64,000 bases of DNA from Janthinobacterium sp. CG3 (lineage in GTDB: Bacteria > Pseudomonadota > Gammaproteobacteria > Burkholderiales > Burkholderiaceae_D), in the NCBI RefSeq assembly GCF_000344615.1, contig NZ_KB467824.1, positions 170,445 through 234,444 of the forward strand, given 5' to 3'. The position numbers were made by a program, and so were the translations under genes. Under the pieces are notes generated by a model. It was not told the DNA's origin. It ran no database searches and was given only the letters and a program-made list of their open reading frames with translations. Position 1 is the first letter of the stretch. Each line of letters opens with the position of its first letter. Positions 14,272-19,443 of the stretch are shown piece after piece.

Positions 14272-15249
14272 TCACCCCGGCAAAATCACCACTTTCCCCG
14301 TCACCTTGCGCGCCGCCATGTCGTTGAGCGCCCGCGCGGTGTCGGCCAGCGCGTAGCGCGCCGAGATGTGCGGCTTGATCTTGCCTTCGGCCAGCCAGCC
14401 CATCAACTGGCGCATCGCCGCCAGGTTGGCCTGCGGCTCGCGCTTGGCGTACTCGCCCCAGAACACGCCGATCAGCGCGGCGCCCTTGAGCAGCGTCAAA
14501 TTCAACGGCAGCTTGGGAATCTCGCCGTTGGCGAAACCGACCACCAGGTAACGCCCGCGCCAGCCGATGGCGCGGAAGGCCGGCTCGGCGTAGACGCCGC
14601 CGACCGGATCGTAAATCACGTCCGGGCCCTTGCCGCCGGTGGCCGCCTTGATCGCCTCGCGCAAGTCCTCGGTGCTGTAGTTGATGGTGGCGTCGGCGCC
14701 GTGGGCGCGGCACACCGCCAGCTTTTCTTCGCTGGAGGCGGCGGCGATGACGCGCGCGCCGAGCGCCTTGCCGATCTCGATCGCCGCCAGTCCGACGCCG
14801 CCGGCCGCGCCGAGAACTAGCATGGTCTCGCCAGCTTTGAGCATGGCGCGGTCGACCACCGCGTGGTGCGAGGTGCCATAGGTGAGGGTAATGGCGGCCG
14901 CCGTGTCGAAGTCCATGCCGGCCGGCATCGGCATCAGGGCCTGCGCCGGCACCGCCAGTTGCTGGGCGAAGCCGCCCTGGGCGCTGAAGGCGATGCCGCG
15001 GTCGCCCACCCGCCAGCCGGCCACGCCCTCGCCGACGGCGCGCACCACGCCGGCCACTTCGCTGCCCGGCGTGAACGGCAGCGCCGGCTTGAATTGGTAC
15101 TTGCCCTGGATGATCAGCACGTCGGGGAAGTTGACCGCGGCCGCCTTCACGTCGAGCACCACCTGGCCCGGCCCCGCCAGCAAGTCCGGCAACTCTTCCA
15201 CCACCAGGCTGTCGGGCGGGCCCCAGGCTTTGCAAACAATGGCTTTCAT
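14272..15249 (-). CDS. NADPH:quinone oxidoreductase family protein (zinc-free MDR)
   Basis: Medium-chain dehydrogenase/reductase of 325 aa that reduces quinones or enoyl compounds with NADPH. The N-terminal GroES-like domain has AAAVNFPDVLIIQGKY and PGSEVAGVVRAVGEGV, where zinc-ligand cysteines are absent. The Rossmann domain contains LVLGAAGGVGLAAIEIGK. VIYDPVGG and WRGRYLVVGFANG follow as in the QOR group. A good ribosome binding site (GGAG, 8 bases) precedes the ATG at 15249. It is divergent from the TIR cassette; the shared 216-base region contains an 18-bp palindrome. The true substrate is not evident. Confidence 0.92.
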   Translation of the reverse strand: MKAIVCKAWGPPDSLVVEELPDLLAGPGQVVLDVKAAAVNFPDVLIIQGKYQFKPALPFTPGSEVAGVVRAVGEGVAGWRVGDRGIAFSAQGGFAQQLAVPAQALMPMPAGMDFDTAAAITLTYGTSHHAVVDRAMLKAGETMLVLGAAGGVGLAAIEIGKALGARVIAAASSEEKLAVCRAHGADATINYSTEDLREAIKAATGGKGPDVIYDPVGGVYAEPAFRAIGWRGRYLVVGFANGEIPKLPLNLTLLKGAALIGVFWGEYAKREPQANLAAMRQLMGWLAEGKIKPHISARYALADTARALNDMAARKVTGKVVILPG

Positions 15250-15372: not shown

Positions 15373-15390
15373 CTTTGCGCCGGCGCAAAG
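15373..15390. promoter_or_regulatory. 18-bp perfect palindrome upstream of the TIR cassette
   Basis: CTTTGCGCC followed directly by GGCGCAAAG. It lies 75 bases before the TIR start and 125 bases before the divergent oxidoreductase, in the only intergenic stretch that can hold both promoters. This suits a dimeric repressor site. A shorter relative (TGCGCC-CC-GGCGCA) lies just after the cassette at 18627-18640. Confidence 0.45.
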
Positions 15391-15465
15391 CGCTACCAGG
15401 TCAGCTTGCTACAGTGGCTCAAAGAGCGAAGTTATGAGGAAGGCAAGAAACAGGGGGGGGATGAT

Positions 15466-16071
15466 ATGAAAATCCGCTACGGCTGTTTCTTAAGCTATGC
15501 GCACGGCCATTATGCGCATATGAGCAAGTTCAAGGACGACTTGGTCGACGCGCTCAAGTGTTACCTGGAACCGCACCTCGACAACGAATACGCGCTGTTT
15601 GTCGACAGCGAGCAGCTCGGCGGCGGCGACGACCTGGATCAGCGCATCGCCCGCGCCCTGTGCGAGAGCGTCTGCATGGTGGTCCTGTACACCCCCAAAT
15701 ACGAAGCGCACGGCTATACCCGGCGCGAGTTCGCCGCGATGCAAATGATTGAAAACGAACGCAAGCAGTGGTACACCCTGCCCAGCCACCTGATCATCCC
15801 GGTGATCATGACGCGCCATCCCGCCGGTTTGCCGCAGCAAATCGCCGGGCCTGGCATGTACGCCGATTTTTCCGGCTACACGCTGGCCAGCGGCGACCTG
15901 AAGGCCAATGTGGCGTACCTGCCCGATATTGAAAAAATCGTGCTGCGGATCGCCAGCCACTACCACCTGTTGAAAAGCGCGACCCCAGCCGGCCACGATT
16001 GCAGCCGTTTCGTGATGCCCGATATTCCGCCGGAATGGCGTGCCATTCCGCCCCCCCATTTTCCACGCTAA
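15466..16071 (+). CDS. TIR-domain protein of a two-gene TIR/NTPase cassette
   Basis: A 201-aa protein whose first ~165 residues form a TIR-like domain. FLSYAHG at residues 8-14 is the first strand and box 1. FVDSEQLGGGDDLDQRIARAL corresponds to the alphaB/box 2 region. MVVLYTPKY is strand D, and YTRREF places Glu88 at the position of the catalytic glutamate of TIR NADases. IIPVIMTRH and DIEKIVLRIASHY complete the fold. The last 30 residues are Pro-rich and unordered. ATG at 15466 begins exactly at the first TIR strand; an upstream ATG-less extension is possible. The next gene begins 9 bases after the stop, so the two are one unit. Expected activity is NAD+ cleavage or TIR-TIR assembly; this is inference from the family. 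Confidence 0.85.
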   Translation: MKIRYGCFLSYAHGHYAHMSKFKDDLVDALKCYLEPHLDNEYALFVDSEQLGGGDDLDQRIARALCESVCMVVLYTPKYEAHGYTRREFAAMQMIENERKQWYTLPSHLIIPVIMTRHPAGLPQQIAGPGMYADFSGYTLASGDLKANVAYLPDIEKIVLRIASHYHLLKSATPAGHDCSRFVMPDIPPEWRAIPPPHFPR

Positions 16072-16080
16072 AGGTTCGCC

Positions 16081-18585
16081 ATGGAACTCCACCGACTGTT
16101 CCTGCCGCCGCTCACCGCGCCCGGCGAAGTCATCACCTTCTACTCGTATAAAGGCGGTACCGGCCGCACCATGGCCCTGTCCAACATCGCCGTGCTGTTG
16201 GCGCGGCGGCAGAACGCCACCGTGCCGATCCTGATGATCGACTGGGACATGGAGGCGCCCGGCCTGCACCATTATTTCGGCCAGCACGAGGAGCGCCCCG
16301 GGGTGCTGGAATTTTTCGAGGCTTGCCGCGCCCAGCTCGAGCGCTTCGACCTGGAGCCGGCCGACCCGGGCGGCGTCGACGCCGAGGCCGACGCCGAGGC
16401 CGATACCGTGCTGGCCCAGCGGGTGCTCGACGCCATCGACTGGCAGCAGTATGTGGTGCGGGTCGACCAGAGCAGCCCGCTGTACCTGATGCGCGCCGGC
16501 CGCTTCGACGCCAGCTACAGCGACCGCCTGGCCGACATGCACTGGGACCGCCTGTTCCACGCCTGCCCCGCGCTGTTCCGTTGCTTCGCCGACAACCTGG
16601 CGCGGCATTTCCGCTACGTGCTGGTCGATTCGCGCACCGGCCGCACCGACAGCGCCGGCATCTGCACCACTTTGCTGCCGAAAAAGCTGGTGGTGGTGTT
16701 CACCCCCAACCGCCAAAGCCTGGAAGGGGTCGAGGCGCTGGTCACGAGGGCGATCGAATACCGCCGCAGCCACGAGGACGAGCAGCGTCCGCTGCTGGTG
16801 TATCCCTTGCCCTCGCGCATTGAAATGGGCGACGGCGAGCAGCGCGCGCAATGGCGCCGCGGCGATACGCACAAGGGCATCTTCGGCTTCCAGCCGATGT
16901 TCGAGCGCCTGCTGCGCCTGTCCTACGGCCTGCCGCTAATCGACCTGGACAGCTACTTCGACGAGGTCCAGCTACAACAAACCAAAACCTTCGCCTACGG
17001 CGAGCAACTGGCGGTGCGCATCGACCAGGGCGGCGACCGCTTTTCGCTGACGCGCACCTTCGAAGCCTTCCTGTTCTGGATGACGGGCGGCTATTTCCCC
17101 TGGCAGTCGAGCCGGGAAATCCATTTGCTGGCCGCCATCGACGAGGCCCGCCACACCCTCGACGACGGCCTGAGCCGGCCGGTGGCGCTGCCGCTGGCGC
17201 GCGACCTGGGGCGCCTGGGCGAGCTGTATAGCAAAGAGGGCAAGACCGGCCAGGCCCTCGACTGCGTGCGCGAATGCCTGGCGATGCGCGCGCGCCTGCT
17301 CGGCGAGGACCATGCCGACACGCTCGACAGCAAGGCCGCGCTGGCGCGGCTGCTGCGCCTGTGCGGCAAGCTCGACGAGGCGCGCTTCCTCGAAGAGGCG
17401 ATCGTCGACGCGCGCACCCAGTTGCTCGGCGCCGAGCATCCGGCCACGCTGGCCGGCATGGCGAACCTGGCCGCGACGCTGGCCCAGCAGGGCGACTGCG
17501 CCACCGCGCTGGCGCTGCAGGACGCGGTGCTGGCCGCCTACATGCGCCTGCTCGGGCGGGAGCATTTGCTGACCCTGGGCGCGCTCGACAGCCGCGCCGC
17601 CACGCTGGCGCAAATGGGCGGGCTGGAGCAGGCCCGCACGCTGCTCGAGACGGTGGTGGCGGCGCGCGAGCGCCTGTTGGGCGTCGAGCACGCCGACACC
17701 CTCGACAGCCAGCACGCGCTGGCGCAGGTGTTGGCGCGGCTCAACGACCTGGCCGGCGCGCGCCGCCTGTTCGACGCCGTGGCCAGGGCGCAGCAGCACC
17801 GGCTCGGCGGCGACCATCCGACCACCCTGGCGACGCTGGACCGGCTCGGCGAGGTGCTGACCCGGCTGGGCGACTGGCCGGCGGCGCGCATGCTGCACGA
17901 GACGCTGCTGGCGGCGCGCGAACGCAGCAACGGCGCGGAGCACCCGGACACGCAGATGAGCCGGCGCAACCTGGCGCAGGCGCTGGCGCGCTATGGCGAG
18001 CCGGAGGCGCCGCACGGCGGCCGCGAGCCGCCGCTGCAAGCCTTGCGCGGCCAGCGCACGCCGTCCTGGTGGCCGCAGCAGGCCGGCCCCAGCCACGAGC
18101 CGGCGCACGACCGGGAGCAACAGCGGCGCGAGCAGCGCGAGCGGCACAACGTCGCGCGCGCGCTGGAAGACGCGGTGCTTGGCGCCAGCGACAGCCTGCT
18201 CAGCGCGCACCACCAGAGCCTGGCGGCGGCGTCGCCGTATCCGGAGCGCCTGCTCGACGTCGAACTGCACGGCGCGCACGGCTTGCACGAGGCGATGATG
18301 CTGGGCGGCCACGGCGCCGAGCCGCCGGCCACGCTGGCGCACATGATCAACACGCTGCAAGCCTTGCTCGACAGCGAGCAGCTGCGCCAGGCGCGCGAAC
18401 TGGCCGACCGCCTGCGCGAGCCGCTGTTCAAGCCCGGCGTGGCGAGCAAGTTGCGCAAGCGCGGCATGACGGTATTGAAGCGCACCTACCGCTTGCAGGG
18501 CGACAAGGACGCGCTGGTCGCGCTGCAAGAGGAGGAGGTCTTGGCGCTGGAGGGGGCGCTGGAGGCGCGCGTCGGCAATCGCTGA
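16081..18585 (+). CDS. KGGTGR-motif P-loop NTPase with kinesin-light-chain-type TPR repeats
   Basis: An 834-aa protein. The N-terminal SIMIBI/ParA-like ATPase has a variant Walker A, YSYKGGTGRTMALSN (residues 22-36), the hallmark of the 'KGGVGR' group. DWDMEAPG (54-61) is the Walker A'-like/switch motif and VLVDSRTGRTDSAG the switch II region. From about residue 360 come at least five ~42-residue TPR units of the kinesin light chain type, recognisable by repeated G.[ED]H..TL signatures (LGEDHADTLDS, LGAEHPATLAG, LGREHLLTLGA, LGVEHADTLDS, LGGDHPTTLAT, GAEHPDTQMS). A C-terminal ~190-residue helical domain is not recognised. Similar NTPase plus TPR plus TIR sets occur in bacterial conflict and signalling systems. 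AAAGG precedes the ATG. Confidence 0.85.
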   Translation: MELHRLFLPPLTAPGEVITFYSYKGGTGRTMALSNIAVLLARRQNATVPILMIDWDMEAPGLHHYFGQHEERPGVLEFFEACRAQLERFDLEPADPGGVDAEADAEADTVLAQRVLDAIDWQQYVVRVDQSSPLYLMRAGRFDASYSDRLADMHWDRLFHACPALFRCFADNLARHFRYVLVDSRTGRTDSAGICTTLLPKKLVVVFTPNRQSLEGVEALVTRAIEYRRSHEDEQRPLLVYPLPSRIEMGDGEQRAQWRRGDTHKGIFGFQPMFERLLRLSYGLPLIDLDSYFDEVQLQQTKTFAYGEQLAVRIDQGGDRFSLTRTFEAFLFWMTGGYFPWQSSREIHLLAAIDEARHTLDDGLSRPVALPLARDLGRLGELYSKEGKTGQALDCVRECLAMRARLLGEDHADTLDSKAALARLLRLCGKLDEARFLEEAIVDARTQLLGAEHPATLAGMANLAATLAQQGDCATALALQDAVLAAYMRLLGREHLLTLGALDSRAATLAQMGGLEQARTLLETVVAARERLLGVEHADTLDSQHALAQVLARLNDLAGARRLFDAVARAQQHRLGGDHPTTLATLDRLGEVLTRLGDWPAARMLHETLLAARERSNGAEHPDTQMSRRNLAQALARYGEPEAPHGGREPPLQALRGQRTPSWWPQQAGPSHEPAHDREQQRREQRERHNVARALEDAVLGASDSLLSAHHQSLAAASPYPERLLDVELHGAHGLHEAMMLGGHGAEPPATLAHMINTLQALLDSEQLRQARELADRLREPLFKPGVASKLRKRGMTVLKRTYRLQGDKDALVALQEEEVLALEGALEARVGNR

Positions 18586-18626
18586 GCGCGCCCCGGCCGG
18601 CCTTGCGCGGCGGCCCCGCCGGCCAA

Positions 18627-18640
18627 TGCGCCCCGGCGCA
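18627..18640. repeat. Inverted repeat after the TIR/NTPase cassette
   Basis: TGCGCC, CC, GGCGCA followed by AAAA. It resembles the palindrome upstream of the cassette (core GCGCC..GGCGC) and lies 42 bases after the NTPase stop. It may be a terminator fragment or a boundary mark. Confidence 0.35.
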
Positions 18641-18705: not shown

Positions 18706-19443
18706 ATGAGAATCCTTATCAGTAATGACGACGGCTACCTCGCCCCCGGCATCGCCGCGCTCGCCGAGGCGCTCGCCGCCATCGCCGACATTGTGGTGGT
18801 GGCGCCGGACAGCAACCGCTCGGGCGCGTCCAACTCGCTGTCGCTGGACCGGCCCCTGTCGGTGCAGCGGGCCGCCAACGGTTTCTATTTCGTCAACGGA
18901 ACGCCGACCGACTGCGTCCACGTGGCGCTGACCGGCATGCTGATCGAGCGCCCGGACCTGGTGGTGTCGGGCATCAACAACGGCCCCAACATGGGCGACG
19001 ACACCTTGTACTCGGGCACCGTGGCGGCCGCCACCGAGGCTTACCTGTTCGGTATCCCGGCGATCGCCTTTTCCCAGGCCGCCTACGGCTGGACCCATGT
19101 CGACGCGGCCGCCCGGCTGGCCCGGGACATCGTGCAGCGGCGCTTCGACGAGTTGCAAAAACCGTATCTGCTGAACGTCAACATCCCCAACCTGCCGTAC
19201 GAGCAGCTCGGCAACGTGGTCGCCACGCGCCTGGGGCGGCGCCATGCGGCCGAGCCGGTGATCAAGGCGCTCGACCCGCGCGGGCGCGAAATTTTTTGGA
19301 TCGGCCCGCCGGGCGCGACCCGCGACGCCGGCGAAGGCACCGACTTCCACGCGGTGGCGCAGGGGCGGGTGTCGATCACGCCGCTGCAAATCGACCTGAC
19401 CCACAAAACCCAACTCGATGCATTGGCAAAAGGCTTGGCATGA
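18706..19443 (+). CDS. surE: 5'/3'-nucleotidase SurE
   Basis: Metal-dependent nucleoside monophosphatase of 245 aa, a stationary-phase survival protein. The metal-binding N-terminus [11 protein letters not shown] is intact. [15 protein letters not shown] and [11 protein letters not shown] follow, then [21 protein letters not shown] and LLNVNIPN. The stop overlaps the pcm start (ATGA), so the pair is translationally coupled. TAAAAT lies only 12 bases before the ATG; if that is the minus-10, transcripts would begin at or very near the start codon. Order surE-pcm-nlpD-rpoS is conserved across many proteobacteria. Confidence 0.97.

Follow-up and report, generated by a model that had tools for sequence, protein, structure and literature searches.

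Gene Pair and Protein Architecture

The window analyzed here is a stretch of 64,000 nucleotides from Janthinobacterium sp. CG3 (contig NZ_KB467824.1, positions 170,445 to 234,444), in which two adjacent forward-strand genes encode a Toll/interleukin-1 receptor (TIR) domain protein and a nucleoside triphosphatase (NTPase) protein with tetratricopeptide repeats (TPRs), separated by 9 bases (16072–16080). The pair, which lies upstream of surE, is inherited vertically in a clade of Janthinobacterium, Duganella, Rugamonas, Pseudoduganella, and Massilia, and its TIR is under purifying selection like that acting on surE. In bacteria, TIR genes have mostly been known as defense genes that are mobile and change fast; this one has a fixed place and is constant across its clade, while its partner loses the nucleotide pocket, the TPRs or, in one species, everything. 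The features of the pair are:

15466–16071, forward strand: TIR_2 protein, 201 aa (open reading frame, Pfam, AlphaFold model, PDB fold matches)
15727–15729, forward strand: Glu88 of the TIR protein (in YTRRE), proposed catalytic residue (RRE conservation and a weak alignment to a solved TIR)
15994–16068, forward strand: conserved C-terminal tail of the TIR protein, ending in FPR (FP[RK] in relatives; likewise in the distant TIR of locus L166)
16081–18585, forward strand: KGGTGR NTPase-TPR protein, 834 aa (open reading frame, Pfam, NCBIfam, AlphaFold model)
16150–16170, forward strand: P-loop KGGTGRT, residues 24–30 (translation; motif compared in relatives)
17110–17994, forward strand: TPR array of kinesin-light-chain type, residues 344–638 (Pfam, model, PDB matches)
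18001–18582, forward strand: C-terminus of the NTPase protein without a Pfam match, partly disordered and helical at 752–833 (Pfam, model)

A sequence-only reading of the window had described a 201-aa TIR protein with a Glu88 at the expected catalytic position, 9 bases before an 834-aa protein; this is confirmed by the open reading frames and by a match to Pfam TIR_2 (PF13676) that passes the curated cut-off (39.7 bits against 28). The start given there for the element, 15373, lies upstream of the TIR gene, which extends from an ATG at 15466 to a stop at 16071; a TTG at 15406 is a possible alternative, but the alignments of relatives begin at the ATG. This TIR is the single TIR_2 match in the genome at E 0.001. 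Its AlphaFold model (mean predicted local distance difference test score, pLDDT, 85.4) has 14 PDB matches by Foldseek at E 0.001 or better, with E from 1.4e-4, including the TIRs of SPARTA, RUN1, AbTir, SNC1, and SARM1, and also TLR5; a sequence search of solved structures with the TIR profile gave no match at E 0.1. The likeness to the NADase TIRs of SPARTA, AbTir, RUN1, and SARM1 is one of fold; unlike these, the window pair is without Argonaute, ARM/SAM, or NLR parts, and its partner protein joins a MinD/ParA-like NTPase to TPRs.

Conservation was compared across 80 named loci, which are the best 80 of 136 stretches from a scan of a collection of named species, so that divergent members are under-sampled. 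RRE with Glu88 is kept in all 80, Glu88 is invariant in 35 aligned rows, and FP[RK] stands close to the TIR C-terminus in 79. Glu88 aligns, weakly (phmmer, E 0.39), with the glutamate of the WxxxE-type motif of a solved TIR, which we take to be the catalytic residue. Glu88 and the fold together suggest that the TIR protein is probably an NAD+-processing enzyme.

The NTPase protein has the KGGTGRT P-loop, a DWDMEAPG motif beginning at residue 54, and TPRs of kinesin-light-chain (KLC) type, all of which had been recognized from the sequence and are confirmed. The NTPase domain passes the cut-off of NF047398 (AAA_KGGVGR; 120.2 bits against 90) and is the sole over-cut-off KGGVGR match in the genome; Pfam TPR_12 and TPR_10 each match six stretches of the protein. 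In the AlphaFold model (mean pLDDT 81.7, predicted template modeling score 0.67), residues 344–638 form 14 helices, and the best PDB matches are the TPR domains of KLC1 and KLC2, several of them in peptide-bound structures; a sequence search of solved structures with the NTPase protein gave one weak match. The C-terminus, previously left unassigned, stays so, with no Pfam match past about residue 642; it is modeled as disordered at 641–673 and 709–749, with helices at 752–833. A CTD match is listed for only some relatives.

Distribution and Inheritance

A search with the TIR matches 36 of 40 genomes of the genus (own genome included, the others at 77–94% identity) and 96 of 294 genomes of the family, in five of 44 genera. 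Across the order there are six matches among 399 genomes, namely five in the family (own included) and one in a genome of another family (G683, locus L166); across the phylum there are four among 398, two in the family and two weak ones (E about 1e-5) in large TIR-bearing proteins. Among the best 80 of 136 stretches, Janthinobacterium fluminis is the nearest named relative, with a TIR that is 94% identical. The 80 named loci comprise 23 of Duganella, 21 of Janthinobacterium, 15 of Massilia, nine of Pseudoduganella, eight of Rugamonas, and four without a genus. surE lies downstream in the same direction in 76, and the contig stops before surE in the remaining four; in a second set, which overlaps the first in part so that the two counts are not additive, all 34 loci likewise have surE downstream and codirectional.

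Within the 1.5 kb viewed at surE, the pair was found in none of 18 genomes belonging to other genera of this family, nine of which have the quinone oxidoreductase (QOR) gene directly beside surE, as an empty site. Inside the clade the pair has been lost cleanly in G021, G028, and G037, where yoaA is followed by surE, and in G133, where the QOR gene is followed by surE. The assemblies of G028 and G037 are 88 and 82% complete, and G021 and G037 group as sisters in the phylogeny and may share a single loss. The expectation that relatives would lack the pair at this place is right for the other genera of the family.

A FastTree phylogeny of the flanking proteins places all TIR-bearing rows in one clade of 114 rows (support 100), which takes in those of the four TIR-less rows (G021, G028, G037, G133) that are present in the tree; the tree is built on linked flanking genes, some rows are half filled, and one locus (L142, with QGGAGRS) was left out. 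Most simply read, the pair was gained once at this position and then inherited with occasional loss. No plasmid record matched the window TIR or the distant TIR of L166; the NTPase domain matches 11 plasmid records. A mobile defense island, considered as a candidate, is rejected because of the fixed position and the clade-wide presence.

Selection on the TIR and Decay of the Partner

The ratio of nonsynonymous to synonymous substitution rates (dN/dS) was calculated for 12 close pairs, chosen by eye. It is 0.022–0.105 for the TIR, 0.032–0.165 for surE, and 0.021–0.449 for the NTPase domain. The TIR value is below that of the NTPase domain in 10 of the 12; the other two pairs are both from Janthinobacterium and have an intact P-loop. 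For the TPRs and C-terminal remainder the ratio is 0.15–0.52 in 11 pairs; the value of 1.87 for the NTPase remainder of L158/L160 was set aside because it rests on very few codons.

The partner is less constant. Of 79 named partners, 60 have an intact KGGxGR[ST] motif. In the other 19 it is degenerate (17 were called by script, and two by reading the translated frame), with forms such as ESGTARS, EGGPARN, RGGAGCT, and QDGCGRS; the degenerate forms belong to most sampled Massilia and to some Pseudoduganella. Mapped on the tree, P-loop state requires at least three changes over 107 rows with a state, duplicates included. Such counts alone cannot separate gain from loss; loss is favored by the intact motif in G683. 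Degenerate NTPase domains are still under purifying selection, with dN/dS of 0.17–0.45 (L134/L137, L138/L139, L147/L151, L156/L144, and L154/L150). Some partners, of 346–350 aa (L076, L158, and L160), have no TPRs, and the TIR proteins beside them keep the C-terminal tail. In Janthinobacterium sp. FT58W (L141, identical with L058) the NTPase gene has been lost; the TIR body is intact and the tail is changed. Decay of the partner with retention of the TIR makes the clade a naturally occurring test of which component of a TIR switch is important.

Relationship to Known TIR and NTPase Systems

The best NCBIfam matches of both proteins are to components of the FxSxx-COOH peptide systems, and both fall below cut-off: the TIR matches FxsC_Nterm (NF040588) with 45.1 bits against 130, and the NTPase protein matches FxSxx_TPR, FxsT (NF040586) with 138.7 bits against 300 over residues 381–729. 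FxsC and FxsT resemble the pair in combining a small TIR-like protein with a TPR protein. Kaur et al. (2020; PMC7159879) describe, in related actinobacterial peptide systems, an AP-ATPase-TPR protein with an added inactive MinD/ParA-like domain. The window pair differs in its sub-cut-off scores and in having no Pfam AP-ATPase match, and it is a clade-core locus of Proteobacteria. FxsB (TIGR04269) was over cut-off in none of the 18 genomes searched; the best score in the genome of the window is 34.5 of 370 bits, and in the near relative G003 two radical-SAM genes reach 229.1 and 221 bits, still below. Membership of FxSxx-COOH is rejected on these scores and on the lack of an over-cut-off FxsB. 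The earlier reading knew of no named system that the TIR tail and the C-terminal domain would fit; named kin do exist in FxsC and FxsT, below cut-off.

PADLOC-DB 2.0.0 gave no full-length match of both genes to one system. There are partial matches to candidate families, of the TIR to PDC-S66 (E 5.3e-6) and of residues 16–73 of the NTPase protein to PDC-M28B (E 1.1e-13). A search of open-licence literature found no title describing such a TIR/NTPase pair, which may still be in print.

A distant pair lies in G683, a genome of the same order and another family, with a TIR protein of 212 aa and a KGGTGRT NTPase-TPR protein of 984 aa (FxSxx_TPR, 281 of 300 bits). It shares with the window pair the gene order, similarity over the full length of the TIR, a TIR tail likewise ending in PEW...FPR, and a KGGTGRT NTPase with TPRs; it differs in its surroundings, which are CHAT/LCAT and TPR-S/cyclase genes where the window pair has surE. 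These are a 2062-aa protein (CHAT, LCAT, DUF7379) and a 603-aa protein (TPR-S, cyclase) around the pair at L166 3257–14966, possibly an uncharacterized conflict cluster. On a Sinorhizobium plasmid (L199, 5995–8199), a KGGVGR NTPase and a TIR are joined in one chain, near two more TIR-annotated genes. The position of the G683 pair among CHAT and cyclase genes and the Sinorhizobium fusion make a conflict-system origin of the TIR/NTPase pair likely.

The KGGVGR domain itself is over cut-off in 37 of 398 genomes of the phylum; the motif is internal to the protein in many of the 29 listed loci. None of nine KGGVGR proteins scanned had a TIR match at E 0.001, so that pairing with a TIR is not general for the domain. 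Two other arrangements were seen. At L232 (1432–3675) KGGVGR, Mrr restriction endonuclease, and NACHT domains lie in one reading frame, a further related architecture of conflict type, and on plasmids of Rhizobium and Massilia (L200, 5486–7854; L201, 5434–7854) an MqsA-family antitoxin gene is directly followed by one for a KGGVGR/ParA-type NTPase of about 620 aa, possibly forming a two-gene system.

A Quorum-Sensing Expression Lead

A "TIR domain containing protein" gene of Janthinobacterium sp. HH01, Jab_2c19720, has a log-fold change of -2.29 in a jqsA mutant as the culture passes into stationary phase (Haack et al., 2016; PMC5080296). The gene is assigned there to the class core genome except strain Marseille, with a JAI-1 motif (TTGAN6/7TCAA) present and no quantitative reverse-transcription PCR value given. 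Jab_2c19720 is probably the TIR of this pair, because among 54 genomes chosen for carrying a TIR of the window type only 15 have a second TIR_2 match (E 0.001) and 39 have none.

Upstream of the TIR gene, the JAI-1 motif was found in five of 81 rows (four Massilia and one Pseudoduganella), where simple shuffling predicts 0.42. Of the 23 Duganella loci, 12 (L082, L084, L087, L090, L092, L094, L096, L101, L104, L108, L124, and L143) have a one-mismatch form, TTGTN6TCAA, 63–64 nt upstream of the TIR start, which may be a variant JAI-1 site.

Proposed Role and Alternative Explanations

The reading that we favor, with about even confidence, is that the pair combines a domesticated TIR NADase with an NTPase or pseudo-NTPase-TPR scaffold, with an output linked to cell density or stress. 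A two-gene module of TIR effector and regulator, akin to FxsC/FxsT, would have entered the common ancestor of the clade between the QOR gene and surE, and would there have been domesticated as an inherited gene pair beside surE-pcm-nlpD-rpoS. NAD+ processing by the TIR would depend on assembly, and the TIR tail would dock on the NTPase domain of the partner, as suggested by the TPR-less partners with a kept tail together with the FT58W case. The TPR array would read a peptide or protein cue, by which the TIR would be held off or assembled. In pairs with an intact P-loop the switch may be set by nucleotide binding, and in most sampled Massilia and some Pseudoduganella the NTPase domain would now serve as a scaffold without a normal P-loop. 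The idea that the NTPase protein senses a threat and unleashes the TIR needs qualification to this extent, the motif having been lost in a part of the partners. As its output, the pair would signal growth arrest or stress when cell density is high, instead of acting as a fast-evolving phage sensor. A more specific version is unlikely as a whole: that a TIR effector from a conflict system is now part of a stationary-phase and cell-density program, processing NAD+ to slow the cell, with a regulator that in several lineages is no longer a nucleotide switch but a pseudo-NTPase scaffold, and with the SurE nucleotidase handling the nucleotide product.

Several observations weigh against the favored reading. 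Non-catalytic TIRs (TLR1, TLR5, and TRAM) are among the fold matches, the TM-scores of the fold matches are modest, and the place of the Trp of the usual WxxxE-type motif is taken by Tyr or Phe, in the window TIR by Tyr84. The tail change in FT58W may be a by-product of one deletion that also removed the NTPase gene. Since the pair can be lost cleanly it is dispensable, and in a further genome (G031) the contig ends 485 bases before surE, so that neither presence nor loss can be called. As to density, the JAI-1 motif is absent up to 350 nt upstream of the TIR gene in the window and in all 21 Janthinobacterium loci, and the expression study reports that, violacein aside, HH01 and HH102 have no quorum-regulated homologues in common; no NTPase neighbor appears in its list (PMC5080296).

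The pair could instead be a vertically inherited, working anti-phage system, in which a phage product, sensed by the TPR/NTPase protein, leads to abortive infection through NAD+ depletion by the TIR. We consider this doubtful, though the strongest of the alternatives. It accords with the TIR fold being nearest to defense and immune TIRs, with the conflict-type settings of KGGVGR and TIR kin, with the partial PADLOC matches, with occasional clean loss, and with the faster evolution of the TPR and C-terminal part, as might be expected of a sensor; it is opposed by the housekeeping neighbors and fixed position, by a TIR as constrained as surE, and by the lack of any plasmid record matching the TIR. 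The same evidence divides the earlier proposal of a defense cassette, which stands with respect to related architectures in conflict-type settings and partial PADLOC matches, and fails with respect to a mobile or variable cassette. Vertical conservation unlinked to defense islands, which the sequence-only reading had named as evidence against itself, is largely what this locus displays, because its position is fixed across the clade and the TIR is constrained like surE; an immune role that is vertically inherited may be compatible with both. A non-enzymatic adaptor role, with the TIR and NTPase-TPR proteins forming a signaling scaffold that does not cleave NAD+, is more improbable still. Loss of the P-loop in 19 of 79 partners, in which partner catalysis is accordingly not needed, and the Tyr or Phe in place of Trp would suit such a scaffold; the retention of Glu88 and its RRE neighbors in every named relative would not. 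That the pair makes up the C and T components of a complete FxSxx-COOH peptide system is highly improbable: the best NCBIfam matches point that way, and the sub-cut-off scores and the FxsB searches, including the two radical-SAM genes of G003, point the other.

The favored reading, that of a domesticated pair, keeps the observation made from the sequence, which is real, and about half of its interpretation. The pair is best described as a variant TIR conflict module, domesticated and unusual in how it evolves, and it offers a lead to a possible role of a domesticated bacterial TIR outside phage defense, in environmental bacteria that can be cultured.

Neighboring Genes

The pair had been placed between a quinone oxidoreductase gene and surE, and the NCBIfam assignments of the neighbors agree:

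14272–15249, reverse strand: PIG3-type QOR, upstream neighbor, outside the pair (NCBIfam)
18706–19443, forward strand: surE, downstream neighbor (NCBIfam)

The assigned neighbors are YoaA (a DinG-like helicase), the PIG3-type QOR (256 of 296.8 bits, under the subfamily cut-off), SurE, Pcm, an NlpD-like protein (210.7 of 311 bits, also under cut-off), and RpoS. In the window, no terminator-like site was found between the NTPase gene and surE, and the promoter scan gave no sigma-70-like site (0.6 expected). The QOR gene is present in the window, yet it occurs at this place in only one of the 21 named Janthinobacterium loci. The longest pcm frame shares about 150 bases (19296–19443) with the end of surE. 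Because the methyltransferase match begins at residue 146 of that frame, the true pcm start may be later.

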